This document shows, one piece after another, positions 33,262 to 46,136 of a stretch of DNA of 64,000 bases. A model generated the notes under the pieces. The model worked only from the letters and a program-made list of their open reading frames with translations, was not told where the DNA came from and ran no database searches. Where the stretch lies: contig NZ_KE386573.1 in NCBI RefSeq assembly GCF_000427685.1, positions 3,084,938 to 3,148,937 of the forward strand. The letters run 5' to 3'. The translations under genes were made by a program, and so were the position numbers. The first letter of the stretch is position 1; each line of letters begins with the position of its first letter. The stretch comes from Haloplanus natans DSM 17983. Its GTDB lineage: Archaea > Halobacteriota > Halobacteria > Halobacteriales > Haloferacaceae.

Positions 33262-35040
33262 TCAGTCGTCGGAGGGGAGGGAGTTACCCTGCCCGTCCGT
33301 CGGGGCGGGCGAGGCGTCCATCGACGTGTCCTCGGCGTAGGGGTACCACGTCATCTTCGTGTTGCCGAGATACGGGTCGTCGTAGCTCGTCTCCTCGGAC
33401 TCGGCGAGGGCGGCGAGGGCGTCCTCGTCGCGGTTGGCGACGAAGTCGCGGAAGGACTCCTCGGGACCCGCACGCTCCGTCTCGTAGGTGTCGAGCAGGT
33501 TGGCGATGTAGCCCGGAATCTCGTCGGCGGGGACGCGCATCTTCACCCAGTCGGCGAACTGCGGGTTCTCGCCGAGGCCGCCACCCAGTCCCACGTCGAA
33601 CGCCTCGACGGCGTCGCCGTCCTTGCGCGTTTTCATCCCCCGCAGGCTAACGTCGGCGATCTGTGGCTGGGCACAGGAGGCAGTACAGCCCGAGAGGTGG
33701 ATGTGGAAGTCCTCGACGCCCTCGGGGACGGGCACGTTGTCCCGCAGCCAGCGCCCGTAGCGCACCATCCGATTTTTCGTCTCGACGATCGAGAGCGAGC
33801 AGTATTCGGTCCCCGTGCAGGCGATGGAGCCGCGCATGAACGGATGCGGGTCCGGCGAGTACTCCGAGAGGAGATCCTCGCCGAGGAAGTCGTCCAGATC
33901 CTCGTCCGCGATGTCGCCGACGATGACGTTCTGTCGCTGGGTCAGGCCGATCATCTCGGAGCCGTACTCCTCGGCGAGGTCGGCGAGTTCGATCACGTCG
34001 TCGGCGGCCATGCGGCCGACGAGGACGGAGAGGCCGACGAAGTTCCGGCCGTCGCTCTGGTCGTGGACGCCGATGTAGTCGCCGGCGGCGTCCGCGCGGC
34101 CGGCGTTGTAGTCGTACTCGTCGCGAAGCCCCTCGCCCGCGGTCGGGAGTTCGTAGTCGACGTACTCGTCCTGCAACACGGTGCGGACCTTCTCGGCCCC
34201 CCACTCGTCGACGAGGAACTTGATGCGGGCGTTGAAGCGGTCCTCGCGGTCGCCGTAGTCACGGAAGAGCGCGGAGAGCCCGGCGGCCACGTCCGTCGCG
34301 TTCTCGGGGCGGCAGAACACGTCGATGTCGCGGGCGAATCGGGGCTCCTTGCGGGCGAGGCCGCCGCCGACGTTGACGTTGAACCCCTCAACCACCTCGC
34401 CCTCGATCTCCTTGGTCGCGGGTTCGAACGCGAGGTCGTTGATGTCGCCCTGGCCGGCGCCGCGGCGGTCGCCGGTGACGGCGACTTTCCACTTCCGGGG
34501 GAGATTCGAGTAGAGGTCGTTGCCCTTGAACGTGTCGTGGAGTTCCTGAACGACCGGCCAGACGTTTATCAGTTCGTCGGCGTCGCGGCCGGCGACGGGC
34601 GAGCCGACGATGTTGCGCCAGGAGTCGCCACACGCCTGAATCGTCGAGAGGCCGACTGACTCCAGTTCGTCCCAGATGTCCTCGATGTCCTCGACTTTGA
34701 TCCAGTGAAGCTGGATCGACTGCCGGGTGGTGAAGTCGGCGTAGGCGGCGCCGAACTCGGGGTTGTCGACCGGGCCGGTGGCGTACTCGTTGGCCACCTC
34801 GCCGACCGTCCGAAGCTGTTCGGGCGTCATCCGCCCCATCGGCGTGCCGATACGCATCATGAAGTAGCTCTCCTGGCCCTTCCGCTGGTGGTACAGCCCC
34901 CACCATTTGAACCGCTCGAACCAGGCGTCGTGTTCGTCGTCGGGGATGGCGTCCCACCCCTCCTCGGCGAACCGGAGGAGATGGTCGCGTATCTCCATCC
35001 CGTAGGTCTCGTCCTTCCAACGCTCGACCTTGGTTGGCAT
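33262..35040 (-). CDS. nirA: Assimilatory nitrite reductase, ferredoxin type
   Basis: A 592-residue siroheme and 4Fe-4S enzyme reducing nitrite to ammonia with six electrons from ferredoxin. The cluster/siroheme cysteines are CTGTEYC (about residue 405) and GCTASC (about 450), the standard C-x5-C and C-x3-C pairs. Two repeated ferredoxin-like and siroheme-binding halves are evident (FTTRQSIQLHWI and LTQRQNVIVGDI). The acidic C-tail is halophilic. Sulfite reductase is a close relative; the ferredoxin and DUF6360 neighbours favour nitrite. No nitrate reductase or transporter gene is in this window. The start ATG 35040 has TATATG 24-29 bases upstream. Confidence 0.88.
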   Translation of the reverse strand: MPTKVERWKDETYGMEIRDHLLRFAEEGWDAIPDDEHDAWFERFKWWGLYHQRKGQESYFMMRIGTPMGRMTPEQLRTVGEVANEYATGPVDNPEFGAAYADFTTRQSIQLHWIKVEDIEDIWDELESVGLSTIQACGDSWRNIVGSPVAGRDADELINVWPVVQELHDTFKGNDLYSNLPRKWKVAVTGDRRGAGQGDINDLAFEPATKEIEGEVVEGFNVNVGGGLARKEPRFARDIDVFCRPENATDVAAGLSALFRDYGDREDRFNARIKFLVDEWGAEKVRTVLQDEYVDYELPTAGEGLRDEYDYNAGRADAAGDYIGVHDQSDGRNFVGLSVLVGRMAADDVIELADLAEEYGSEMIGLTQRQNVIVGDIADEDLDDFLGEDLLSEYSPDPHPFMRGSIACTGTEYCSLSIVETKNRMVRYGRWLRDNVPVPEGVEDFHIHLSGCTASCAQPQIADVSLRGMKTRKDGDAVEAFDVGLGGGLGENPQFADWVKMRVPADEIPGYIANLLDTYETERAGPEESFRDFVANRDEDALAALAESEETSYDDPYLGNTKMTWYPYAEDTSMDASPAPTDGQGNSLPSDD

Positions 35041-35854: not shown

Positions 35855-36982
35855 CTACGCCACACCCTCCGCCGTTCCCAGCACCGCCGCGACGCCCTCA
35901 CGGATCGCCGCGTGGAACCGATCGCTCGCGTACCGGTCCCGCGGGAGCGTCGGTCGGTCGTCGTTCGCAACCGCCGCGGTCATCGTCGCCACGGCGTCGG
36001 GCGTCGAGTCGAACAGGCGGTCCGACCGGCCGTCGAGCACCTCCCGTTGCCCGCCCGTGTCCGGCGCGAACGCGACCATCCCCGCGGCGACGTATTCGGC
36101 GACCGCCATCCCGAAATGTTCCGCCGGTTTGCAGTTCAGGCCGTAGCGGTGCGTGGCGAGCAGTTCCATCACCCGCTCGCGGGCGGCGTCGCGGTGGAGG
36201 GTGACGTACGACCGCTCGGCCGCGGCCGCGGCCACCCGACGGGCGTAGTCGGCGTAGATGGTCGACGTCGAGCCGACGAGGTGGCAGTGCAGGTCGTAGC
36301 CACGGGCACGAACGCCGTCGACGATCCCGATCGCTTCGAGCGGCCGCTTGTCCGGGGCGAGACGCCCGAGGACGACGACGCCCGCTTCGCGGTCCTCCCA
36401 CGGCCGCGGGTTCGGCACCGGATCGACCGGCGGGGCGAGGACGCCCGGCCGCCGCCCGTAGATGGACTCGACGGCGTCGGCCGTCCACCCGGAGTTGGCG
36501 AGGAGGTGGGCGTCGGCGGGGAGGCTCCGGTCGCCGACGCCGGCGAGGCGGCTCCACAGCGGGTCGAGGCGGGGGTCGTCACCGGCCGCCGCGTGCCGGC
36601 AGTTGAACTGCGGGAAGTGGATATACTGGAGCGAGGGAAGCGGGAGGTCGAACTCGTTGGCGGTGCTGACGGCGGCGTCGAAGTCGGCGGCGTGGGGGGC
36701 AAAGAGCCGACGGAGCAGGACGCTCCGGGCGGCGAGTTGCGGCCCGTACCGGTCGGGGAGGGCGTCGAACGCCCGACAGACGACGCCGGTTCCGGCCGGG
36801 CGGTGGACCCGCACGTCGGCGTCGGTATCGAACAGCGCGTTGAGGTCGGCGAGCGACGACCGCGAGAGGGTAACGAGCGTCACGTCGTGGACGGCTTGGA
36901 GGGCCTCACAGACGTGGAGGCAGACGGCGTCGGCGCCGCCCCGGCCGTCGAGCGTGTTGTGGAGGACCGCCACCCGCGCCAT
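35855..36982 (-). CDS. Glycosyltransferase family 4
   Basis: A GT-B fold glycosyltransferase of 375 residues. The N-terminal nucleotide-side loop RVAVLHNTLDGRGGADAV is followed by a C-terminal domain with GRLAPDKRPLEAIGI and the E-x7-E motif in KPAEHFGMAVAEYVAAG, which binds the sugar nucleotide. It would transfer a sugar from a nucleotide donor to an unknown lipid or protein acceptor. It is divergent from the plus-strand cluster starting at 37144, with a palindromic repeat between them, and is probably part of the same pathway. Confidence 0.88.
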   Translation of the reverse strand: MARVAVLHNTLDGRGGADAVCLHVCEALQAVHDVTLVTLSRSSLADLNALFDTDADVRVHRPAGTGVVCRAFDALPDRYGPQLAARSVLLRRLFAPHAADFDAAVSTANEFDLPLPSLQYIHFPQFNCRHAAAGDDPRLDPLWSRLAGVGDRSLPADAHLLANSGWTADAVESIYGRRPGVLAPPVDPVPNPRPWEDREAGVVVLGRLAPDKRPLEAIGIVDGVRARGYDLHCHLVGSTSTIYADYARRVAAAAAERSYVTLHRDAARERVMELLATHRYGLNCKPAEHFGMAVAEYVAAGMVAFAPDTGGQREVLDGRSDRLFDSTPDAVATMTAAVANDDRPTLPRDRYASDRFHAAIREGVAAVLGTAEGVA

Positions 36983-37014
36983 GTCACTCCGTCGGCGGCG
37001 GCGCGACTTATACC

Positions 37015-37086
37015 GATCGCTGTCGACGGTTTATCCAGAGTCGTTATCGGCGGGTCGCCGAGACGGCCCACCGATAACTGGTGACT
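37015..37086. repeat. Palindromic intergenic element, copy B
   Basis: Starts with GATCGCTGT (37015-37023), continues with GGTTTATCCAGAGTCGTTATC and the inner inverted repeat TTATCGGCGGG / CCCACCGATAA, and ends near GGTGACT at 37086. It shares about 24 of 32 positions of its GTTT...GGGTCGCCG arm with copy A. It sits between the divergent GT4 gene and the Gfo-AKR gene. Confidence 0.75.
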
Positions 37087-37143
37087 CGCACGCCTCGCCG
37101 CCCCCGGCGCGGGACTTTTTACGACGGCAGCCCGCCGGAGGGT

Positions 37144-39126
37144 ATGGAGTGTGCGTTCGTCGGGTGTGGCGCCGTCGCCCGGAAGTACGCCGCCACGCTC
37201 GACGACTCGGGGCTTTCGGTGACCGCCGTCTGCGACATCGATTCCGACCGCGCCGCCGACTTCGCGGCCGAGTGTGGCGGGCGGGCGTACACGGACCTCG
37301 ACGTGATGCTCGACGCCGAGGCGAGCCCCCTGATCCTGAACTGCACGAGCCACGGCGCCCACGCCGACGTGACGGAGCGTGCTCTGCGGGGCGGCCGACA
37401 CGTCTGGAGCGAGAAACCGCTCGCGCTCGACGGCGGGCGGGCGCGGGACCTAGTCACGCTCGCGGAGCGCCGGGGACTGGCGCTTGGCTGTGCGCCGATC
37501 AACGACACCTGCGAGGCCCAGCGGCTCGTGCGAAGGGCGCTCGACGACGGCCGTCTGGGCCGGGTGCGACTGGCCTACGCCCACGCTCACGTCGGGCGGG
37601 TGACCGAGTGGCACGACGACCCCGGTTCCTTTCTCGACGTGGGGCCGCTGTACGACGGAGCGGTCTACCCGCTGACCCTCCTCGTCGCGTGGTTCGGCCC
37701 GGTCGAGCGGGTTCGCGTCGCCGACGCCGCCGACCCGTGGCCCGACCGCGCGGCCGAGCGGCCGACGCGGCCGAGCCACATCGAGGCGACGCTGTCGTTC
37801 GCGGACGGCCCGCTGGTCCGCCTGACCGCGAGTTTCTACGCGCCCCACCGAAGCCGGGAGTTCACGAGCCTCGAACTCCACGGCGACGACGGCTCGTGTT
37901 ACCTCGACGACGCCGGCGACCTCGGGGGGGAGCCGGGCCACCACGTCGCCTTCGGCCGCGAGGGACGGGAGTATACGTCGATGGCGCTGCAGGAGCCCTC
38001 GTCCCGGACGCCGTATCTCGCCGGCCCCGAGCGACTGGCGGCGAGCGTGGATCGAGGGGCGCCCGACCGGGCGACTGCGCGGCGGGGCGCCCACGTCGTT
38101 GCCGTCTGTAACGCCGTCGAGGAGGCGGCCGAACGGGCGGCGAGCGTCGCCGTCGACGGGGGCGGCGTCGCCACGCGCGAGCAACGGCGACCGGTGTGGG
38201 GGCACGCCGGCCGGGGCGGCGTCGGCGACCCGCCGGGACCGCCGGCCGCCGCCCTTCGTCTGCCGCCCGTCGGCTTCGGGTGTTCGCGCTACCGCGACGG
38301 CGAGTACGTCGACCGCCGTGACTCAATCGCGGCCGCGCTGGACGCCGGCTACCGCTTGCTCGACTCCGCGGAACTGTACGGCAACGAGGACCGAATCGGC
38401 GAGATTCTCGCGGCGCCGGGGAGTCCCGACCGCGACGCGCTCTTTCTCGCGAGCAAGGCGTGGAACACGAACCACGGTCACGTCGCGGAGGCGTGCGAGA
38501 CGACACTCGACGCACTCGGCGTGGACGCGCTCGACTGTTACATGCTCCACTGGCCGGACGCGTGGGCGTACACCGGCCCGCTCCGTGGCCTCGCCGAGTT
38601 GCCGGTCGCGGAGCAGGAGCGGCTGACCTTCCCCGAGGACGACGATGGGGAGCGGGCAACGGCGGACGTGGATCTGGAGGCGGCGTGGCGGGGGTTGGAG
38701 GCGCTGTACGACCGGGGTCTCGTCGCGTCGCTCGGGATCTGTAACGTCGACCGGGCGACGCTCTCTCGAGTCGTCGAGTTTTCCCGCGTCCCGCCGGCGG
38801 TGGTGCAGGTGGAGCGCCATCCGTACCGCCCCTGCGACGACCTGGTGTCGTGGTGTCACGAGCGTGGCATCCGGGTGGTCGCACACTCGCCGCTGTCGGC
38901 GCCGGGCCTGCTCGACGAGCCCGCAGTCCGGGAGACGGCGGCGGAGCTGGGCTGTTCGCCCGCGGCGGCCGTCCTCGCGTGGAACGTCGACCGGGGCGTC
39001 GTCCCCATCCCGTCGAGCACCGACCCGGATCACGTCGTCGAGAACCTCGCGGCGGCGGGACATCGTCTCACTGACGGGGGGCGCGAGCGGCTGGCCGCCC
39101 TGGAAGAGCCGGGGTTCGAGCGATGA
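37144..39126 (+). CDS. Fusion of Gfo/Idh/MocA oxidoreductase and aldo/keto reductase
   Basis: A 660-residue protein with two redox enzymes in one chain. Residues 1-340 form a Gfo/Idh/MocA domain: CAFVGCGAVARKYA (Rossmann) and WSEKPLAL (EKP, about 90). Residues 370-655 form an aldo/keto reductase: FGCSRYRDGEYV, Tyr in SAELYGNED (about 411), Lys in LASKAWN (about 437), His in MLHWPDAW (about 469), then SLGICNVD and VPIPSSTDPDHV. Both halves keep catalytic residues, so it is a real bifunctional enzyme rather than a read-through. I chose ATG 37144; TTTTTAC lies about 30 bases before it. The substrates are probably a sugar nucleotide or polyol. Confidence 0.85.
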   Translation: MECAFVGCGAVARKYAATLDDSGLSVTAVCDIDSDRAADFAAECGGRAYTDLDVMLDAEASPLILNCTSHGAHADVTERALRGGRHVWSEKPLALDGGRARDLVTLAERRGLALGCAPINDTCEAQRLVRRALDDGRLGRVRLAYAHAHVGRVTEWHDDPGSFLDVGPLYDGAVYPLTLLVAWFGPVERVRVADAADPWPDRAAERPTRPSHIEATLSFADGPLVRLTASFYAPHRSREFTSLELHGDDGSCYLDDAGDLGGEPGHHVAFGREGREYTSMALQEPSSRTPYLAGPERLAASVDRGAPDRATARRGAHVVAVCNAVEEAAERAASVAVDGGGVATREQRRPVWGHAGRGGVGDPPGPPAAALRLPPVGFGCSRYRDGEYVDRRDSIAAALDAGYRLLDSAELYGNEDRIGEILAAPGSPDRDALFLASKAWNTNHGHVAEACETTLDALGVDALDCYMLHWPDAWAYTGPLRGLAELPVAEQERLTFPEDDDGERATADVDLEAAWRGLEALYDRGLVASLGICNVDRATLSRVVEFSRVPPAVVQVERHPYRPCDDLVSWCHERGIRVVAHSPLSAPGLLDEPAVRETAAELGCSPAAAVLAWNVDRGVVPIPSSTDPDHVVENLAAAGHRLTDGGRERLAALEEPGFER

Positions 39127-39872
39127 GCGGTCGCGAGGGAACCGTCACCGAGCGTCGACACGTAGCGGCCACGGCCGTCGTGGGCGTGGCGGCGGCGGCG
39201 GTGGCGGTCGGCGGGTGGACCGTCGTCGCCGACGCCGCGACACGCGGGGCCGCGAACCGCTGGGTCCTGATCGCGGGCGCGGCACTGGCGTACGAAGTCG
39301 GCTTCGTCGCCTACCACCTCGACGCCGACCGGGTGGGCGTGGCGCTTGTGCCCCCGAACCTGGTCACGCTGGCCCGCGGCGGGCTGTACGCCGCGACGGC
39401 GGGGTTCCTGTTCGTCCCGCCGGTGACCCCCGTCGTGCGGTGGGCGCCCGCGGCGTGTTACGGGACGGGCGTCGTCCTCGATTTCGTCGACGGCAGCCTC
39501 GCCCGACGGATGGGACGAACCACGGCGCTCGGGGCGAAACTCGACCTCGCGTTCGACACGCTGGGCTTTCTCGTCGCACCCCTCGTTGCCGTGGCCTGGG
39601 GACGGCTCCCGGTCGCGTATCTCTCGTTGTCGGCCGCGCGGTACGTCTACCGCGCGGGGATCGGGTGGCGAACGCGACGCGGGCGGTCGGTCGGCGACCT
39701 GCCCGCGAGCCGGATTCGTCGCCCGCTGGCCGCGCTCCAGATGGGTTTTATCGCCGTCGCGCTGGCGCCGGTTCTGCCGGCGTCCGTGATTCATCCCGTC
39801 GCCGTCGTGGTCCTCGTGCCGTCGCTCGCGACGTTCGCTCGGGACTACCTGACCGTCACCGGGCGGCTGTAG
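39123..39872 (+). CDS. CDP-alcohol phosphatidyltransferase family membrane protein
   Basis: A 249-residue membrane enzyme with about six hydrophobic segments. The family motif D-x2-DG-x2-AR-x8-G-x3-D-x3-D is complete in LDFVDGSLARRMGRTTALG followed by AKLDLAFD. These enzymes join a CDP-activated lipid or alcohol to a second alcohol, releasing CMP. It overlaps the Gfo-AKR gene by four bases, so the two are co-translated. The acceptor may be the polyol or modified sugar made by the neighbouring oxidoreductases. Confidence 0.88.
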   Translation: MSGREGTVTERRHVAATAVVGVAAAAVAVGGWTVVADAATRGAANRWVLIAGAALAYEVGFVAYHLDADRVGVALVPPNLVTLARGGLYAATAGFLFVPPVTPVVRWAPAACYGTGVVLDFVDGSLARRMGRTTALGAKLDLAFDTLGFLVAPLVAVAWGRLPVAYLSLSAARYVYRAGIGWRTRRGRSVGDLPASRIRRPLAALQMGFIAVALAPVLPASVIHPVAVVVLVPSLATFARDYLTVTGRL

Positions 39873-39926
39873 TCGCGGTCGGAGCGGCCACCACGACATC
39901 CGGGTCGTGAGGGGCGGCAGTATGAA

Positions 39927-41003
39927 GTGACACGCGGCGCTAGACCGGGCGTGACAGGGAGCGTCGAGGGCGGGCGATCCGGAGTCGACCCGCCGGCGAG
40001 CGGCCGATCACTCTACTTCACCGGCCCCCGGACGGTCCGGATCGAACGGGAGGCTATTTCCGGCCCCGATCCGGACGAGGTGCTCGTCGAGACACGGGTC
40101 TCGGCGGTGAGTTCGGGCACCGAACTCCTGATCTATCGGGGCGAGATGCCCCGCGACCTCCCGGCCGACGGGAGCATCGACGCTCTCACGGGCGACCTGA
40201 GCTACCCGCTCAAATACGGCTACGCGACGGTCGGCGACGTGGTGGCGACGGGATCGGCCGTCGACGACGGCTGGCGCGGGCGGACGGTCTTCGCGTTCAA
40301 CCCCCACGAGAGCCACTTCACGGCCACGCCGGACGACCTCGTGCCCGTCCCGGAGGGGCTGTCTCCGTCGACGGCCGCCCTGCTCCCCACCGCGGAGACG
40401 GCGACGACGCTCGTCATGGACGGCCGGCCGCGGGTGGGCGAACGCGTCGTCGTCTTCGGCGCGGGGATGGTCGGTCTCGTCACGACGAGCGTCCTCGCCG
40501 AGTTCCCGCTGGAGCGGTTGACGGTGGTCGAACCCGTCGCTCACCGGCGGGAGATGGCGGCGAGCCTCGGCGCCGACGAGACGCTGACGCCCGACCGGGC
40601 GGCGCGGGTCGGCGAACGGGGCGATCCGGCGGGCGCGGATCTGGTGTACGAACTCTCCGGGCAGCCGACGACGCTCGACGACGCCATCGACGCCGTCGGC
40701 TACGACGGGCGAATCGTCGTCGGGTCGTGGTACGGGCGCAAGCGCGCCGAAACGGATCTGGGTGGGTTCTTTCACCGCAACCGGATCGACGTATCCTCGA
40801 GCCAGGTGAGCACGCTCGCGCCCGACCTCCGGGGGCGGTGGACGAAGGAGCGGCGGCTAGACACCGCGTGGGAACGGCTGGACGACGTGGCGGCCGACCG
40901 CCTCGTCACCCACCGCGTCCCCTTCGAGGACGCCGCCGAGGCCTACCGCCTCCTCGACGAGGGGCCGGAGAACGCGCTACAGGTGTTGCTGACGTACGAG
41001 TAG
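39927..41003 (+). CDS. Zinc-type alcohol dehydrogenase-like protein (MDR family)
   Basis: A 358-residue medium-chain dehydrogenase/reductase from GTG 39927; a second GTG at 39951 is an alternative. The Rossmann motif is VVVFGAGMVGLVTTSVL. The catalytic zinc ligands of true alcohol dehydrogenases are missing: the usual Cys near residue 60 is replaced in SAVSSGTELLIYRG, and no four-Cys structural zinc loop is present. Such zinc-less MDR proteins (bacterial bchC-like and sugar dehydrogenases) use NAD(P) on sugar or isoprenoid alcohols. It lies 54 bases after the phosphotransferase gene. Confidence 0.82.
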   Translation: MTRGARPGVTGSVEGGRSGVDPPASGRSLYFTGPRTVRIEREAISGPDPDEVLVETRVSAVSSGTELLIYRGEMPRDLPADGSIDALTGDLSYPLKYGYATVGDVVATGSAVDDGWRGRTVFAFNPHESHFTATPDDLVPVPEGLSPSTAALLPTAETATTLVMDGRPRVGERVVVFGAGMVGLVTTSVLAEFPLERLTVVEPVAHRREMAASLGADETLTPDRAARVGERGDPAGADLVYELSGQPTTLDDAIDAVGYDGRIVVGSWYGRKRAETDLGGFFHRNRIDVSSSQVSTLAPDLRGRWTKERRLDTAWERLDDVAADRLVTHRVPFEDAAEAYRLLDEGPENALQVLLTYE

Positions 41004-41062
41004 CGGAGGCGACCGGACCGGGCCGGCCGACAGTATAAGTCACTCCACGGCAACGAACCGAT

Positions 41063-41440
41063 ATGTACCGGCTCTCGGTTTCGCGGGACTTCGTCGCCCA
41101 GCATTTCCTGACCGTCCCGAACCCCGGCCCGGAGGGGGAGGTACACAGCCACCACTTCGAGGTGGCCGTCCGCCTCGCCGGCCCCGAACTGAACGAGTAC
41201 GGCTACCTCGTCGACATCGACGCCGTGAACGCCGCGCTCGACGAGTTGGAGGCCCGGTATCGCGACGCGCTCTTGAACGACCTGCCGGAGTTCGAGGGGG
41301 AGAACCCGAGCGTCGAGCGGTTCGCCCGCCTGTTCGGCGACCGGTTCGTCGAGCGCGTCCCCACGGAGATGCCCACGGAACTGACCGTCCGGATGTGGGA
41401 AGACGAGGACGCGTGGGCGAGTCACGAGCGAGCCCTCTGA
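41063..41440 (+). CDS. 6-pyruvoyltetrahydropterin synthase-fold protein with Glu in place of Cys
   Basis: A 125-residue tunnel-fold protein of the PTPS/QueD family. Zinc ligands are His14 (in VAQHFL) and His28 and His30 (in EGEVHSHHFEV). In PTPS and QueD the catalytic residue four before the first of these His is Cys; here it is Glu24. PTPS-III enzymes of folate synthesis carry this same Cys-to-Glu change. The C-terminal VRMWEDEDAWASHE matches the family. It shares one base with the methyltransferase start (TGATG). It is probably not the queuosine/archaeosine QueD; a pterin aldolase-like role on a pterin or sugar is my inference. Confidence 0.82.
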   Translation: MYRLSVSRDFVAQHFLTVPNPGPEGEVHSHHFEVAVRLAGPELNEYGYLVDIDAVNAALDELEARYRDALLNDLPEFEGENPSVERFARLFGDRFVERVPTEMPTELTVRMWEDEDAWASHERAL

Positions 41441-42255
41441 TGGAGCACGCCGACCGGCGGTATCTGGAGGCGAAGCGGACGGTCGACGACCGGGCGCTCG
41501 ACCACCGGGTCCGTGACCGCCTCCTCGACGAACTCCCGGACGCGCCGCGGATTCGCGAGGCCGGCGTCGGGACGGGCGTCACGGTACCTCGACTCCTCGA
41601 CTGGGGGGTCACCGCCGGCGACTATCTGGGCGTCGACCGCGACCCCGACGTGATCGAGTACGCTCGGGAGCGACGGGCGAGCGAGTGCGGCGGCGACCGG
41701 ATCGAGGGCGGATTTCGAGTGGACGACCTGACCGTCCGGTTCGAGCAGGGGGACGCGCTGACGGCGTTCGAGGGGGCGGAGGCCGACTGCGTCGTCGCAC
41801 AGGCGTTTCTCGATCTGGTTCCGGTCGACGGCGCGCTGGACGCCTTCGCCGACGCGCTGACACCGGGTGGCCTGGTGTATGCGCCGATCACCTTCGACGG
41901 CGAGACGACCTTCCAACCCGACCACCCGGCCGACGACGCCGTCGTCGCGGCGTACCACGACGCCATCGACGCCGAACCGGGCCGGGACGCCCGCGCCGGC
42001 CGGCACCTGCTCGACCGCTGTCGCGCCCGCGACGGTGACCTGCTTGCCGTCGGCGCGTCGGACTGGATCGTCTACCCCCCGTATCCGGCCGACGAGCGGG
42101 CCTTTCTCGCGACGATTCTGGAGTTCGTCGCCGAGGCGGTCGGCGGGCGAGTCGCGGGCGCGGACGACTGGCTCCGGACGCGCCGCCGCCAACTCGACGC
42201 CGGGCGGTTGAGCTACGTCGCACACGGCTACGACGCCCTCTACCGCGTCGAGTGA
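41440..42255 (+). CDS. Class I SAM-dependent methyltransferase
   Basis: A 271-residue methyltransferase. Motif I is IREAGVGTGVTVPRLL, followed by YLGVDRDPDVIEYARER and, for motif IV, DCVVAQAFLDLVPV; GGLVYAPITFDGETTF follows. The ATG at 41440 is coupled to the upstream stop (TGATG). The substrate is unknown. Overall it resembles enzymes acting on small molecules. It ends four bases into the flippase-like gene. Confidence 0.8.
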   Translation: MEHADRRYLEAKRTVDDRALDHRVRDRLLDELPDAPRIREAGVGTGVTVPRLLDWGVTAGDYLGVDRDPDVIEYARERRASECGGDRIEGGFRVDDLTVRFEQGDALTAFEGAEADCVVAQAFLDLVPVDGALDAFADALTPGGLVYAPITFDGETTFQPDHPADDAVVAAYHDAIDAEPGRDARAGRHLLDRCRARDGDLLAVGASDWIVYPPYPADERAFLATILEFVAEAVGGRVAGADDWLRTRRRQLDAGRLSYVAHGYDALYRVE

Positions 42256-43286
42256 CGATGCGTAACGGCCGGCGGCGGACGGCCGGGTGGGCGCTCGTCG
42301 CGCTCGTCGGCCTGTGGCTCTACCTGTGGACCGTCGGCGTCGACGCCATCGTTTCGGCGCTCGGGCGGGTCGACCCCGCCGACGCCGCGGCGCTCGTCGC
42401 CGCCGGCTGGATGTCCGTTGTCGCCTGGGGCGTCTCGCTCCATCTCGTCCTCCGTCGGCTGGACGCGCCGACGACGCTGCCGGCGTCGGTCGGGCTGTTC
42501 GCGGCGTCGGCGTTCCTGAACAACGTCACGCCGTTCGGACAGGCGGGGGGCGACCCGGTGAGCGGGGCGCTGGTGGCGCGGATCGAGGGGATTCCCTTCG
42601 AGCGCGGGTTCGCGGGCGTCGTGAGCGTGGGCGCCGCCAACACCGTCGCCGTCGTCGGTCTCGGGGTCTGCGGGGGCGCCGCCATCCTCGCGACGGCCGC
42701 CGTCGGGGACGCGCTCCGCGTCGCCCTCGTGGTCACCGCGGCGGTCGTGGCGGCGGCCGGCGTCGTCGCGGTCCTAGCGTGGCGGCGGCGCGAGCGACTC
42801 GTCGTCCGCGCCGGCGGGTGGCTCGGGGACGGGATGGAACGGCTCGGCGGCGTGGTCCCCGGCGTCGACCCGCCGGACCGGGAACGGATCGTCGAAGGGA
42901 GCCGGGGATTCGTCGTCGCGCTCGAACGCGTCGGTGACTCGCGACGACGGCTCGCGGCCGTCCTCCTGCTCGGCGTTTGCGGCCATCTCGCGGTGGCGGC
43001 GACGCTGTGGCTCTCGCTCGCGGCGCTCGACGCCACCGTCTCGCCCGTCCGGGTGCTGGTCGTCGTGCCCGTCGCGCGGCTGGCCGGCGCGTCGCCGACG
43101 CCCGGCGGGACGGCGAGCGCGGAGGCGCTGCTGACCGGGTTGCTCGTGGCCGTGGGCGGCGTCGCGATGCCCGTCGCCGCCGCCGCGGCGCTGGTCTACC
43201 GGGCCGCCGCGTTCTGGCTCCCGACGGCCGGAGGTGGCGTCGTCACCGCGCTCTTGCTCCTGACCGCTCAGGACTCGCGGCGGTAG
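42252..43286 (+). CDS. Flippase-like membrane protein (UPF0104 / lysylphosphatidylglycerol synthase TM type)
   Basis: A 344-residue integral membrane protein with about eight hydrophobic segments. The region SAFLNNVTPFGQAGGDPVSGALVARIEG with PFGQAGGDP is the central UPF0104 (AglD/MprF-TM) motif, and RLAGASPTPGGTASAEALLTGL is the second conserved PTPGG box. The family includes proteins that flip or polymerise lipid-linked sugars. Start is GTG 42252 overlapping the previous stop (GTGA) or ATG 42258. Its place at the end of this cluster suggests it moves the finished lipid-linked product across the membrane. Confidence 0.8.
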   Translation: MTMRNGRRRTAGWALVALVGLWLYLWTVGVDAIVSALGRVDPADAAALVAAGWMSVVAWGVSLHLVLRRLDAPTTLPASVGLFAASAFLNNVTPFGQAGGDPVSGALVARIEGIPFERGFAGVVSVGAANTVAVVGLGVCGGAAILATAAVGDALRVALVVTAAVVAAAGVVAVLAWRRRERLVVRAGGWLGDGMERLGGVVPGVDPPDRERIVEGSRGFVVALERVGDSRRRLAAVLLLGVCGHLAVAATLWLSLAALDATVSPVRVLVVVPVARLAGASPTPGGTASAEALLTGLLVAVGGVAMPVAAAAALVYRAAAFWLPTAGGGVVTALLLLTAQDSRR

Positions 43287-43621
43287 AGGACGACCAGAAT
43301 AGCGATCAGGGAGATCTGAACGATTTTGTCCCCGATACCGCCCGGACTGAGCACGTCCGGCCAGTTGAAGACGAAGTAGAGGACGACCTGGATGCCCGTG
43401 AACGGAATCCCGACGAGATAGAGGAGGCGACGGCGAACGTCGACGAGAAGCAGGAAAATGGCGACGAAGAAGGCGACACCGGCGAGGACGAAGCTGACAC
43501 CCTGCGCGGTGTCGATGGCGAGGACACCGAAGTAGAGGTGGACGACGCCGGTGATGCTGGCGAGGACGATGCCGATCCAGTGAAGCGGCGTGAGCGACTC
43601 GGTCTCGAAAGGAGTTGTCAT
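43268..43621 (-). CDS. Small four-helix membrane protein
   Basis: A 117-residue membrane protein from ATG 43621 with about four hydrophobic helices (LHWIGIVLASITGVVHLYFGV, then FVLAGVAFFVAIFLLLV, further helices near 70 and 95, all given in part). Its 3' end overlaps the flippase gene by 19 bases in opposite orientation. Phrases such as LTPLHWIGIVLA and VRRRLLYLVGIPFTG recur in haloarchaeal membrane proteins of this size, but no function is known to me. Confidence 0.7.
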   Translation of the reverse strand: MTTPFETESLTPLHWIGIVLASITGVVHLYFGVLAIDTAQGVSFVLAGVAFFVAIFLLLVDVRRRLLYLVGIPFTGIQVVLYFVFNWPDVLSPGGIGDKIVQISLIAILVVLYRRES

Positions 43622-43701
43622 GGGGTTCGATACCACGCCGGCGGATAAAACGAATGGGGTCGGGCGTACGCTTATCCACCGTCGATCCGTCAACGCGTGG
43701 C

Positions 43702-44415
43702 ATGGGAATCGAGTACGTGCGGCGAGCGGCGGACCCGGCGGTGTCGGTCGTCGTCCCCTCGGTGCCGACGTACGACCACGAACCGACCATCGACGAGCTA
43801 GAGGCACAGACCCTCGATCGGCCGTACGAAATCATCCTCGTCGACGACGGTACCGTCGACCGGTCGGCGGCCCGCAACCGGGGGCTGGAGGCGGCGTCGG
43901 CCGAGGTGGTGGCGATGACCGACGACGACACCAGACCACCGGAGACCTGGCTGACGACCGCATACGAGGCGTTCGCGGCCGATCCGGACCTGGTCTGTCT
44001 GGAGGGGCCGGTGTACGGCGGCTGTCGGAGCTTCGGACCCCGCCACTACGTCGGCTGTAACCTCGCGGCGCGCCGTGACGCCGCGCTCGACGTAGGGGGT
44101 TTTCGGTCGGCGTTCTCCGAGTGGCGCGAGGACGTGGAGTTCGGGTGGCGAATGGAGGCGGAAGCCGACGGACACTGTCGATTCGAGGAGGCGTTCCGGA
44201 TGTGTCACCCGGACGTACCGCGGACGGCGTTCGACCCGAAGCTAGAGCGGCGGCTGAGACGTGAGTATCCGGATCGCTACGCCGACGTGATGGACGTGAC
44301 GTGGACGCGGCGGTGGTATCGGCGGGCGCGGGCGGCGGGGCTCACCCAGCCGGTTCAACGGGTTCGTAACGCCATTGGCCGCCGGCTCTGGGGGGAGTGC
44401 CGCAGCCGATGGTAG
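43702..44415 (+). CDS. Glycosyltransferase family 2-like protein
   Basis: A 237-residue GT-A fold protein from ATG 43702. The nucleotide-sugar site is the phrase VSVVVPSVPTYDHEPTID with YEIILVDDGTVDRSAARNRGLEAA, and the acidic metal triad is AMTDDDTRPP. The acceptor-side segment is ALDVGGFRSAFSEWREDVEFGWRMEA, with ED-x2-FGWR as in GT2 enzymes. There is no membrane helix, so it acts at the inner face. It lies beside the UPF0104 membrane protein and is probably a second sugar-adding step of the cluster. Confidence 0.85.
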   Translation: MGIEYVRRAADPAVSVVVPSVPTYDHEPTIDELEAQTLDRPYEIILVDDGTVDRSAARNRGLEAASAEVVAMTDDDTRPPETWLTTAYEAFAADPDLVCLEGPVYGGCRSFGPRHYVGCNLAARRDAALDVGGFRSAFSEWREDVEFGWRMEAEADGHCRFEEAFRMCHPDVPRTAFDPKLERRLRREYPDRYADVMDVTWTRRWYRRARAAGLTQPVQRVRNAIGRRLWGECRSRW

Positions 44416-45114: not shown

Positions 45115-45122
45115 ACTATATG
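45115..45122 (+). promoter_or_regulatory. TATA-like box for the type II GAPDH gene
   Basis: ACTATATG lies 22-29 bases before ATG 45144 and supports that start over an in-frame TTG/ATG-like codon eight residues earlier. Confidence 0.5.
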
Positions 45123-45143
45123 AGGGAGCGGTCAACGACGCGT

Positions 45144-46136
45144 ATGATCCGCGTAGGCGTTAACGGGTACGGTACTATCGGCAAGCGGGTTGCCGACGCA
45201 GTGAACTCGATGCCGGACATGGAACTCGTCGGCATCGGCAAGGCCAGTCCGAACCACACGGCGGACGCGGCCGCGAAGCGTGGCTACGACATCTACGTTC
45301 CCGAGGGCCGCGAGGACCGCTGGGACGACGCCGGCATGGCTGTCGCGGGCGACATCGACGACCTGATCGACGCGAGCGACATCGTCGCCGACGCGACACC
45401 GGCCGGGATGGGCGCGGAGTACCGCCCCGTCTACGAGGAACACGACACGCCCGCCCTCTTCCAGGGCGGCGAGGGGGCGGACGTGGCCGAGGCAAGCTTC
45501 ACTGCCCGGGCCAATTACTCGGAAGCGACCGACAAGGAGTACGTCCGCATCGTCTCCTGTAACACCACGGGGCTGAACCGGATGTTCGCGCCGCTCCACG
45601 AGGAGTACGGCGTCGAGCGTGCGTCCATTACACTCGTGCGCTGTCGGGGCGAGCACGCGGTCATCTCGGCCGATCCGGTCTCGCTTCCATCCCATCACGG
45701 CCCGGACGCCCTCGAAGTCATCCCGGACATGGGGCCGGTCATGACGATGGGGATGAAGGTGCCGACGGTGCGACACCACTTCCACGGCATCAACGTGGAA
45801 CTCGGGGCGGAGCCGAGCGCCGAGGAGGTCCGTGATCTGCTCGCCTCACAGTCGCGCATCCACGTCGTCGACGGCGACCTGGGCATCGACTCCGGGTGGG
45901 AACTCCAGGAGTTCGCCCTCGACCGGGGTCGCGACCGGATGAACCTCTACGAGAACCAGATCTTCGAGGACTCCATCAGCGTGGACGGCACCCAGCTCCA
46001 CCTCTTCCAGTCCATCCACCGCGAGAGCGACGTGGTGCCGGAGAACGTGGATGCCATCCGCGCCATGATGGGCGAGGCCGACGCGGAAGAGAGCATCGAG
46101 CTGACGAACGAGGTCATGGGGATCGGCGACATTTAA
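45144..46136 (+). CDS. gapB: Type II glyceraldehyde-3-phosphate dehydrogenase
   Basis: A 330-residue archaeal type II GAPDH, usually assigned to gluconeogenesis in haloarchaea. The N-terminus IRVGVNGYGTIGKRVADAV is the Rossmann motif, the catalytic Cys139 is in RIVSCNTTGLNRM, and HHFHGINVEL is typical of the type II fold. It is not the bacterial type I enzyme. The half-length PEP-synthase-like gene begins at the very next base, so the two are probably co-transcribed. The gene symbol follows usage in Haloferax. Confidence 0.93.
   Translation: MIRVGVNGYGTIGKRVADAVNSMPDMELVGIGKASPNHTADAAAKRGYDIYVPEGREDRWDDAGMAVAGDIDDLIDASDIVADATPAGMGAEYRPVYEEHDTPALFQGGEGADVAEASFTARANYSEATDKEYVRIVSCNTTGLNRMFAPLHEEYGVERASITLVRCRGEHAVISADPVSLPSHHGPDALEVIPDMGPVMTMGMKVPTVRHHFHGINVELGAEPSAEEVRDLLASQSRIHVVDGDLGIDSGWELQEFALDRGRDRMNLYENQIFEDSISVDGTQLHLFQSIHRESDVVPENVDAIRAMMGEADAEESIELTNEVMGIGDI

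Follow-up and report, generated by a model that had tools for sequence, protein, structure and literature searches.

Cyanobacterial pteridine glycosyltransferase systems combine a glycosyltransferase with a PTPS-family enzyme to yield a pterin glycoside. A pteridine glycosyltransferase from Chlorobium has also been described (PMC5683033), and in 2017 proteins of the PTPS-IV subfamily were reported to be associated with PF00925 and PF01872, that is, with GTP cyclohydrolase II (GCH II) and RibD neighbours (PMC5445326). A role for PTPS-IV in F420 synthesis has been claimed but is unpublished (PMC5041015), and gaps remain in the haloarchaeal riboflavin pathway (PMC8305020). Here we analyse a locus of Haloplanus natans DSM 17983 for which the initial annotation had proposed an undescribed glycolipid or modified-pterin pathway. 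A literature search found no pathway or product for this cluster, and a search on pterin lipids, SCO6650/SCO6655 and the HVO neighbours of arfA found nothing useful. The word undescribed therefore needs a qualification, as the GCH II and RibD neighbours of PTPS-IV are already on record.

The locus (Table 1) lies within a 64,000-nucleotide stretch of the genome, hereafter the window. Re-checking the open reading frames and the sequence bore out all gene calls, strands, overlaps and gaps of the initial annotation, and the Pfam and NCBIfam profile searches by which we assigned each gene to a family agreed with its family calls throughout. Neighbouring genes overlap by 4 nucleotides (Gfo-AKR/CDPOH, methyltransferase/UPF0104) or 1 nucleotide (PTPS/methyltransferase), or are separated by gaps of 54 (CDPOH/MDR) and 59 nucleotides (MDR/PTPS). 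The start of Gfo-AKR is more likely the ATG at 37144 than position 37081, and the GT2 start is more likely the refined one given in the table.

Table 1. Genes of the locus, in window coordinates, with profile evidence and status in homologous clusters.
Feature	Coordinates	Strand	Family evidence	Status
GT4 glycosyltransferase	35855..36982	-	Pfam PF00534, Glycos_transf_1	Divergent from operon
Gfo/Idh/MocA oxidoreductase-aldo-keto reductase fusion (Gfo-AKR)	37081..39126	+	Aldo_ket_red 134.5 bits; GFO_IDH_MocA 71.9	Frequent accessory
CDP-alcohol phosphotransferase (CDPOH)	39123..39872	+	PF01066 58.3 bits; intact motif	Core
Zinc-less MDR dehydrogenase	39927..41003	+	PF00107; invariant FNPHESHF motif	Core
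PTPS-fold enzyme, Glu at catalytic Cys place (ExxxHSH)	41063..41440	+	PF01242 87.8 bits	Core
Class I SAM-dependent methyltransferase	41440..42255	+	Pfam	Core
UPF0104/LPG_synthase_TM membrane protein	42252..43286	+	PF03706 130.7 bits; TIGR00374 68.8 (above the cut-off of 43.2)	Local addition
DUF7475 small membrane protein	43268..43621	-	PF24287	Frequent accessory
GT2 glycosyltransferase	43702..44415	+	PF00535, Glycos_transf_2; ATG at 43702, ORF open from 43615	Local addition

CDPOH, MDR, PTPS and the methyltransferase form a co-inherited core. All four are present in 160 of 292 haloarchaeal genomes and any of them in 176, with pairwise Jaccard values of 0.92-0.99. PTPS occurs in 171 genomes and MDR in 168, every one of which (168 in common) also carries PTPS; CDPOH and PTPS occur together in 162, the methyltransferase and PTPS in 170. 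Among the 60 PTPS-anchored haloarchaeal loci that make up our neighbourhood sample, MDR lies within 7 kb of PTPS in 51; counts over these loci were not taken from the gene-order listing, where overlapping long frames mask PTPS in some rows. Co-occurrence persists even without linkage, as in L149-type genomes, where a methyltransferase-CDPOH pair sits about 140 kb from ArfA-MDR-PTPS-GT4. At least 116 of the 292 genomes are without the cluster, and a search for phage-borne homologues found none. The expectation that the genes are kept together across haloarchaea therefore held, and the cluster is genuine, but its boundaries differ from those first drawn.

CDPOH, the methyltransferase and GT4, all named as pathway parts by the initial annotation, prove to be obligate or near-obligate partners across the haloarchaeal loci. 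GT4 is present in 48 of the 60, as one of two unrelated types that never share a locus: the window type, at the same place in 17 loci, and a type (c5) that sits between PTPS and the methyltransferase in most other clusters. The window GT4 takes the place of c5; orthology of the two was ruled out, their similarity reaching only E about 1e-6. Sequence comparison revealed no special kinship of these GT4s to tetrahydrobiopterin glucosyltransferases. DUF7475 accompanies 31 loci, Gfo 23 and AKR 21. GT2 and UPF0104 had also been taken as fixed parts of the pathway, yet most haloarchaeal clusters do without them: GT2 occurs in only 4 of the 60 loci and UPF0104 in only one other, plus L033. On these counts we rejected both as core parts, and with them a conserved linkage of UPF0104, as pathway flippase, to the core genes in haloarchaea. 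UPF0104 is linked to homologous clusters independently in Chloroflexota.

The PTPS-fold enzyme matches PF01242 and has the predicted three-histidine zinc site and pterin-anchoring glutamate of the superfamily. H14, H28 and H30 are the putative zinc histidines and E113 the putative pterin anchor; these residues and E24 are invariant in an alignment of 32 sequences. Its predicted structure (pLDDT 96.7) superimposes on solved superfamily members with TM scores of 0.8-0.92, SCO6650 being the closest solved fold (TM 0.92, 28% identity) and QueD scoring about 0.8. The protein contains no cysteine, and E24 aligns with the catalytic Cys27 of Escherichia coli QueD. The catalytic histidine is also replaced, by Ala or Lys after the Asp, and the reaction may therefore differ from all known ones. 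The resulting motif, ExxxHSH, differs from that of QueD and from each of those published for PTPS-II, -III and -IV. Instead of the CxxxHGH of PTPS-I/QueD it has E24 in the Cys place and HSH, and the queC partner is represented in the host genome only by weak partial matches (about 23 bits); an archaeosine (QueD) role was ruled out on motif and lack of a convincing QueC. Against the ExxHGH of PTPS-III, the window glutamate stands four residues before the first histidine, in the Cys place. At the position of the PTPS-IV signature FGPAQ the window reads PGPEG, whereas L114, L115 and L116 read FGPAQ.

Gene neighbourhoods point to GTP as the starting material. Homologous clusters in Chloroflexota, Desulfomonile/Syntrophales, a Methanotrichaceae archaeon, Streptomyces and a purple sulfur bacterium carry GCH II and/or a RibD-type reductase (GCH II in 15 and RibD_C in 16 of 21 non-haloarchaeal clusters), so that bacterial homologues of the window PTPS subfamily have a PTPS-IV-type neighbourhood. 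The Streptomyces relative L115 has CDPOH, MDR, PTPS, GT4, methyltransferase, creatininase and GCH II all together. In haloarchaea the place of GCH II is taken by its unrelated analogue GTP cyclohydrolase III (ArfA), found in 26 of 60 clusters; Haloarcula pelagica (L118) repeats the window gene order except that ArfA stands between CDPOH and MDR. Genome G069 has a second ArfA copy beside MDR, and G313, G314 and G317 have RibBA elsewhere together with a RibA-RibD_C fusion inside the cluster, which suggests extra copies of GTP-opening enzymes dedicated to the cluster. The window itself is without ArfA and reductase genes, host copies of which lie at C7:2366624 (ArfA) and C7:1124235 (reductase). 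Many genomes have a single GTP cyclohydrolase of that type, which serves riboflavin synthesis as well, and the adjacency of ArfA or GCH II could therefore reflect shared regulation. From the presence of these genes in homologous clusters the pathway probably starts at the pyrimidine that early riboflavin synthesis obtains by opening the GTP ring, and the modified-pterin half of the original proposal gains strong independent support.

The same adjacency, of ArfA or of GCH II plus RibD_C, could mark helper enzymes that fill archaeal gaps in riboflavin or F420 synthesis, as the haloarchaeal riboflavin gaps (PMC8305020) and the claimed PTPS-IV role in F420 (PMC5041015) might suggest. We consider this very unlikely: all 20 cluster-negative haloarchaea tested have ArfA yet are without the cluster genes, and CDPOH, GT4 and the methyltransferase have no role in either synthesis. 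A glycolipid or polysaccharide pathway would do without a pterin altogether. Reductases and the PTPS-fold enzyme would act on sugars or polyols, CDPOH would make a new head group for an archaeal phospholipid, to be extended by glycosyltransferases. CDPOH, GT4, GT2, Gfo-AKR and UPF0104 are all common in lipid and glycan pathways, and in some haloarchaea CDPOH has PAP2- and YdjM-like genes nearby. Given that homologous clusters contain GCH II or III and RibD_C, and that the pterin-anchor glutamate and zinc histidines of PTPS are invariant, this reading is improbable.

A further possibility is a folate-type PTPS-III route, in which PTPS would make 6-hydroxymethyl-dihydropterin for folate or a folate-like cofactor. 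It has in its favour the replacement of Cys by Glu, as in Plasmodium PTPS, whose E37 is called catalytic (3m0n, 3lze). The motif is nevertheless ExxxHSH rather than ExxHGH, the haloarchaea that are without the cluster also need folate, and folate synthesis has no step for GT4, methyltransferase or CDPOH. As to the folate-pathway substrate dihydroneopterin triphosphate, which GCH I produces, the clusters carry GCH II or III, while GCH I or GCYH-IB genes are located elsewhere in most cluster-bearing bacterial hosts tested. We hold such a route to be highly improbable, and the presence of those genes elsewhere also led us to reject the cluster as sole pterin source.

In MDR, the positions where the zinc ligands Cys, His and Glu usually stand are occupied by Ser, Tyr and Ala (SSGTE and YGYAT), so that the catalytic ligands of a zinc-dependent MDR alcohol dehydrogenase are missing, and its ADH_N match is below cut-off. 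An alignment of 56 homologues shows these substitutions to be conserved, together with the motif around them, KYGYAxVG...VFAFNPHESHF. The CDPOH motif D-x2-DG-x2-AR-x8-G-x3-D-x3-D is intact (DFVDGSLARRMGRTTALGAKLDLAFD) and conserved in homologues, and the protein has no sequence relative in the PDB. For the methyltransferase (predicted structure pLDDT 96.3), a fold search for substrate clues returned as best matches only generic class I methyltransferases.

Taken together, these data lead us to propose, with about an even chance of being right, that the cluster is a side branch of GTP/riboflavin metabolism giving a glycosylated, methylated pterin-type compound that is possibly lipid-linked. GTP would be opened to 2,5-diamino-6-(phosphoribosylamino)pyrimidinone by ArfA, encoded elsewhere in the host, or by GCH II in bacteria, and the ribose would be reduced by an ArfC/RibD_C reductase; both are known chemistries, tied to the cluster by gene neighbourhood. 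MDR might then oxidise the side chain, for example to the 2'-ketone, a guess given that MDRs without zinc often reduce C=C bonds instead of acting as alcohol dehydrogenases. The 5-amino group would next close the pterin ring without GTP cyclohydrolase I, and the PTPS-fold enzyme may shape ring closure or side chain, with zinc, E24 as acid/base and E113 on the 2-amino-4-oxo ring. PTPS-fold enzyme and dehydrogenase would thus plausibly make the unusual polar unit first suggested for them. GT4 would attach a sugar, the methyltransferase would cap the molecule, and CDPOH would form a phosphodiester between it and a second alcohol, for which the membrane lipid is the likeliest candidate; Gfo-AKR, GT2 and UPF0104 would be lineage-specific tailoring or transport genes. 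Lipid attachment is something we infer from CDPOH and, in other clusters, UPF0104, and CDPOH could act on a soluble CDP-alcohol instead of the CDP-archaeol or CDP-diacylglycerol expected as donor for a lipid-making enzyme.

The same GTP precursors might alternatively give a product whose ring is never closed, a glycosylated ribityl-aminopyrimidine or 8-ribityl pteridine rather than a classical pterin. RibD_C implies a ribityl chain, and loss of the PTPS histidine allows chemistry unlike known pterin reactions; retention of the predicted zinc site, catalytic-type glutamate and pterin anchor makes this unlikely. A bolder form of the side-branch proposal, possible but rather unlikely, is a membrane-anchored pterin in both prokaryotic domains, made by a stepwise GCH I-independent route in which GCH II or III opens the ring, RibD_C reduces the product to the ribityl compound, MDR oxidises this to the ketone and a Glu-type PTPS closes the ring, followed by glycosylation, methylation and CDPOH attachment to a phospholipid. 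If the side-branch proposal is right, an unrecognised branch of GTP metabolism would be common to over half of the haloarchaeal species and to several bacterial phyla. An archaeal pterin glycoconjugate would then have its first candidate genes, a zinc-less MDR family, an unnamed methyltransferase family and an orphan PTPS subgroup would each gain a function, and there might be a new lipid type with a redox-active, light-absorbing head group. Since Haloferax-type strains allow the cluster genes to be deleted and assayed, the question is directly testable.

How, then, does the cluster compare with known systems? With AglD/UPF0104 handling of lipid-linked sugars it shares a UPF0104 gene, overlapping the methyltransferase gene in the window but missing from 59 of 60 haloarchaeal clusters. 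Like the cyanobacterial and Chlorobium systems it pairs a glycosyltransferase with a PTPS-family enzyme, but GCH I and tetrahydrobiopterin are the starting point of those systems, which are without CDPOH, MDR and GCH II/III and have glycosyltransferases to which the cluster GT4 shows no special sequence kinship. The Plasmodium/bacterial folate enzyme PTPS-III likewise has Glu for the catalytic Cys and shares the fold, with TM scores of about 0.82 for 2a0s and 1y13; the window glutamate is one residue further from HxH, and the window cluster has other partners and is dispensable in haloarchaea. PTPS-IV, as in SCO6650 (PDB 3d7j), offers the closest solved fold and a neighbourhood with GCH II and RibD_C (PMC5445326), and L115 and L116 also carry CDPOH, MDR, GT4 and methyltransferase. 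The window subfamily differs in having ExxxHSH rather than FGPAQ...HGA, in keeping the second zinc histidine and, in haloarchaea, in using ArfA, and the MDRs of L115 and L116 are far from the window MDR on the tree (branch 2.83). Finally, the archaeal riboflavin entry pathway (ArfA, ArfB, ArfC) is physically linked to the cluster through ArfA in many haloarchaea and through RibD_C, of the ArfC family, in bacteria. No deaminase, lumazine synthase or riboflavin synthase genes were found among those of the cluster; what it adds to that entry pathway is MDR, PTPS, GT4, methyltransferase and CDPOH.

Searching a single fixed panel of 292 haloarchaeal genomes with the PTPS-fold enzyme (PTPS), the zinc-less MDR dehydrogenase (MDR), the CDP-alcohol phosphotransferase (CDPOH) and the methyltransferase of the cluster revealed near-identical sets of positive genomes (171, 168, 166 and 171, respectively): 160 carry all four genes, 176 carry any and 116 carry none (Fisher p < 1e-60, without correction for relatedness). 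Better evidence than this p value comes from several genera with both cluster-positive and cluster-negative genomes, such as g8 and g25, in which the genes were gained or lost together. An MDR protein search matched 80 loci in named genomes, with the closest relatives in Haloplanus, and gene maps of the matched loci show the block MDR-PTPS-GT4-methyltransferase recurring in haloarchaea, Anaerolineae, Desulfomonile, Syntrophales and a Methanotrichaceae archaeon. Haloferax-like genomes of the L149 type, which resemble Haloferax mucosum (L053), carry the block in two pieces, with HAD-ArfA-MDR-PTPS-GT4 approximately 140 kb from a divergent methyltransferase/CDPOH pair. Since co-inheritance persists despite this split, the core genes are tied by function and not by position alone. 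The expectation of the initial annotation that these genes are kept together elsewhere is therefore borne out, and the cluster is a real, widespread and co-inherited pathway.

Open reading frames, sequence and profile matches bear out the gene coordinates, overlaps and gaps first assigned to the cluster, except that Gfo-AKR and GT2 probably start at ATG 37144 and ATG 43702, respectively. The flanking nitrite/sulfite reductase-type and GAPDH genes look like neighbours and not cluster parts; among the loci seen, GAPDH adjoins the cluster only within Haloplanus.

Location and gene content of features in the window and in homologous loci
Feature	Location	Strand	Content
Window	G000:C7:3084938-3148937		64 kb of haloarchaeal genome
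Nitrite/sulfite reductase-type gene, flank	window 33262-35040	-	
DUF7475, small DUF gene	window 43268-43621	-	
Type II GAPDH gene, other flank	window 45120-46136	+	
Haloarcula pelagica	L118		GT4(-), Gfo, CDPOH, ArfA, MDR, PTPS, methyltransferase; window order with ArfA inserted
Streptomyces fungicidicus plasmid p1	L115		CDPOH, MDR, PTPS, GT4, methyltransferase, creatininase, GCH II
Thiodictyon	L116		MDR, PTPS, GT4, methyltransferase, RibD-family protein, CDPOH
Divergent methyltransferase/CDPOH pair, L149-type genera	G040:C17:100663-102189 and equivalents		far from ArfA-MDR-PTPS-GT4
Cyclopropane-synthase-like methyltransferase, Anaerolineae	L039:10885-11913 and equivalents		
~200-residue protein, Halorussus and Haladaptatus	L048:9275-9877, L119:6338-6931		

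Within 7 kb of 60 PTPS genes from 60 haloarchaeal genomes we counted MDR 51 times, methyltransferase 49, GT4 48, CDPOH 34, DUF7475 31, ArfA 26, Gfo 23, AKR 21 and HAD 6. GT2 (4 of 60) and UPF0104 (1 of 60), initially proposed as pathway members, are peripheral, being recent gains in a few Haloplanus and relatives; the UPF0104 gene adjoining CDPOH in Chloroflexota clusters is an independent recruitment. Two unrelated GT4 types occur at the 60 loci, one termed c5 (31 loci, mostly between PTPS and methyltransferase) and the divergent type of the window (17 loci). They never share a locus, and the window GT4 is thus very likely a replacement part. Other genes accompany particular clusters: an extra SAM methyltransferase between MDR and PTPS in Anaerolineae, and, in Halorussus and Haladaptatus, a protein without a Pfam match whose gene directly precedes MDR. 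Beside CDPOH in L056, L152, L156, L161, L170 and others lie genes suggestive of lipid chemistry, for a YdjM-like membrane metal-dependent hydrolase (in 10 haloarchaeal clusters) and for a PAP2-type phosphatase (in 6). In Haloferax/Halogranum clusters (L037, L038, L053, L149, L164, L168) ArfA has a divergent neighbour encoding a NagD-type HAD phosphatase, which could serve this pathway or fill the riboflavin gap.

Gene neighbourhood also ties the cluster to the opening of the GTP ring and to pyrimidine reduction. Of 21 clusters from bacteria and methanogens, 15 additionally encode GTP cyclohydrolase II (GCH II) and 16 a RibD-type pyrimidine reductase (RibD_C), often as a fusion. The additional gene in haloarchaeal clusters encodes GTP cyclohydrolase III (ArfA) and lies upstream of MDR or downstream of the methyltransferase. 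Because GCH II and GCH III are unrelated enzymes that open the same ring of GTP, the same chemistry has been placed beside the same genes independently in two lineages. The archaeal route removes the formyl group with ArfB, a member of the creatininase family, and the creatininase of the Streptomyces plasmid would fit this role; L056 and L147 also carry creatininase genes close to the cluster. Some genomes keep dedicated cluster copies of GTP-opening genes: G069 has two ArfA genes, one inside the cluster, and in G313, G314 and G317 the cluster contains a RibA-RibD_C fusion, with RibBA encoded elsewhere. Deletion of arfA (HVO_1284) causes riboflavin auxotrophy in Haloferax volcanii (PMC8305020). 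The cluster does not represent riboflavin synthesis, since ArfA persists in all tested haloarchaea that lack it. It is also not a mere pterin supply of its bacterial hosts, most of which encode GTP cyclohydrolase I or an archaeal-type counterpart elsewhere.

PTPS retains a conserved zinc/pterin-type site, with H14, H28, H30, E24, D51, N72, N81, E85 and E113 invariant in 32 aligned members. The three histidines are the predicted zinc site, E24 aligns with catalytic Cys27 of E. coli QueD (Ala in the aligned crystal sequence), E113 matches the pterin-anchoring Glu, and the His following the catalytic Asp of QueD is substituted. The AlphaFold model (pLDDT 96.7) resembles SCO6650 (TM 0.92) and QueD (about 0.8). 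Plasmodium PTPS likewise has Glu for Cys, E37 being named the catalytic residue in PDB entries. By sequence the window group is a separate subfamily, since its motif ExxxHSH is one residue longer than the ExxHGH of PTPS-III (PMC5041015). MDR has lost its zinc ligands, carries an almost invariant FNPHESHF motif and has BchC as its best curated model, far under cut-off. The CDPOH active-site motif is intact. The methyltransferase is confidently modelled as a class I fold, for which fold comparison gave no informative nearest relative, and the PDB contains many GT4 enzymes related to the c5 type, with tetrahydrobiopterin glucosyltransferases present though not foremost. Neither QueD nor a convincing QueC was found in the whole H. 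natans genome, so the host probably lacks its own preQ0 synthesis for archaeosine and would need salvage.

We consider it quite likely that the pathway begins at a ring-opened GTP pyrimidine. The precursors would be the ArfA/ArfC products, 2,5-diamino-6-ribosyl/ribityl-amino-pyrimidinone phosphate, whose remaining 2-amino group E113 of PTPS would hold. MDR may oxidise the side chain; a 2'-ketone, equal to the intermediate of the GTP cyclohydrolase I Amadori step, would close to a dihydroneopterin-type ring, and PTPS may act on ring closure or the side chain. GT4 and the methyltransferase would decorate the product, and CDPOH would make a phosphodiester, probably to a membrane lipid. A bicyclic pterin is the moderately favoured product, while its linkage to lipid is a plausible idea we hold at slightly below even chances. 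Of the glycolipid or modified-pterin pathway initially envisaged, the co-inherited pathway thus stands, a pterin-type product is likely and a lipid link plausible, with UPF0104 and GT2 falling outside the core.

PF00925 and PF01872 neighbours were shown in 2017 for PTPS-IV proteins, which carry the signature FGPAQ (PMC5445326), and a 2016 review mentioned, as unpublished, a role of PTPS-IV in F420 and left PTPS-V open (PMC5041015). The literature searched contained no description of the pathway, of its CDPOH, MDR, GT4 or methyltransferase members, or of its product. In the 1980s charged pterins were reported from halobacteria and Sulfolobus, without genes, and these would be a natural place to seek the product of this cluster.
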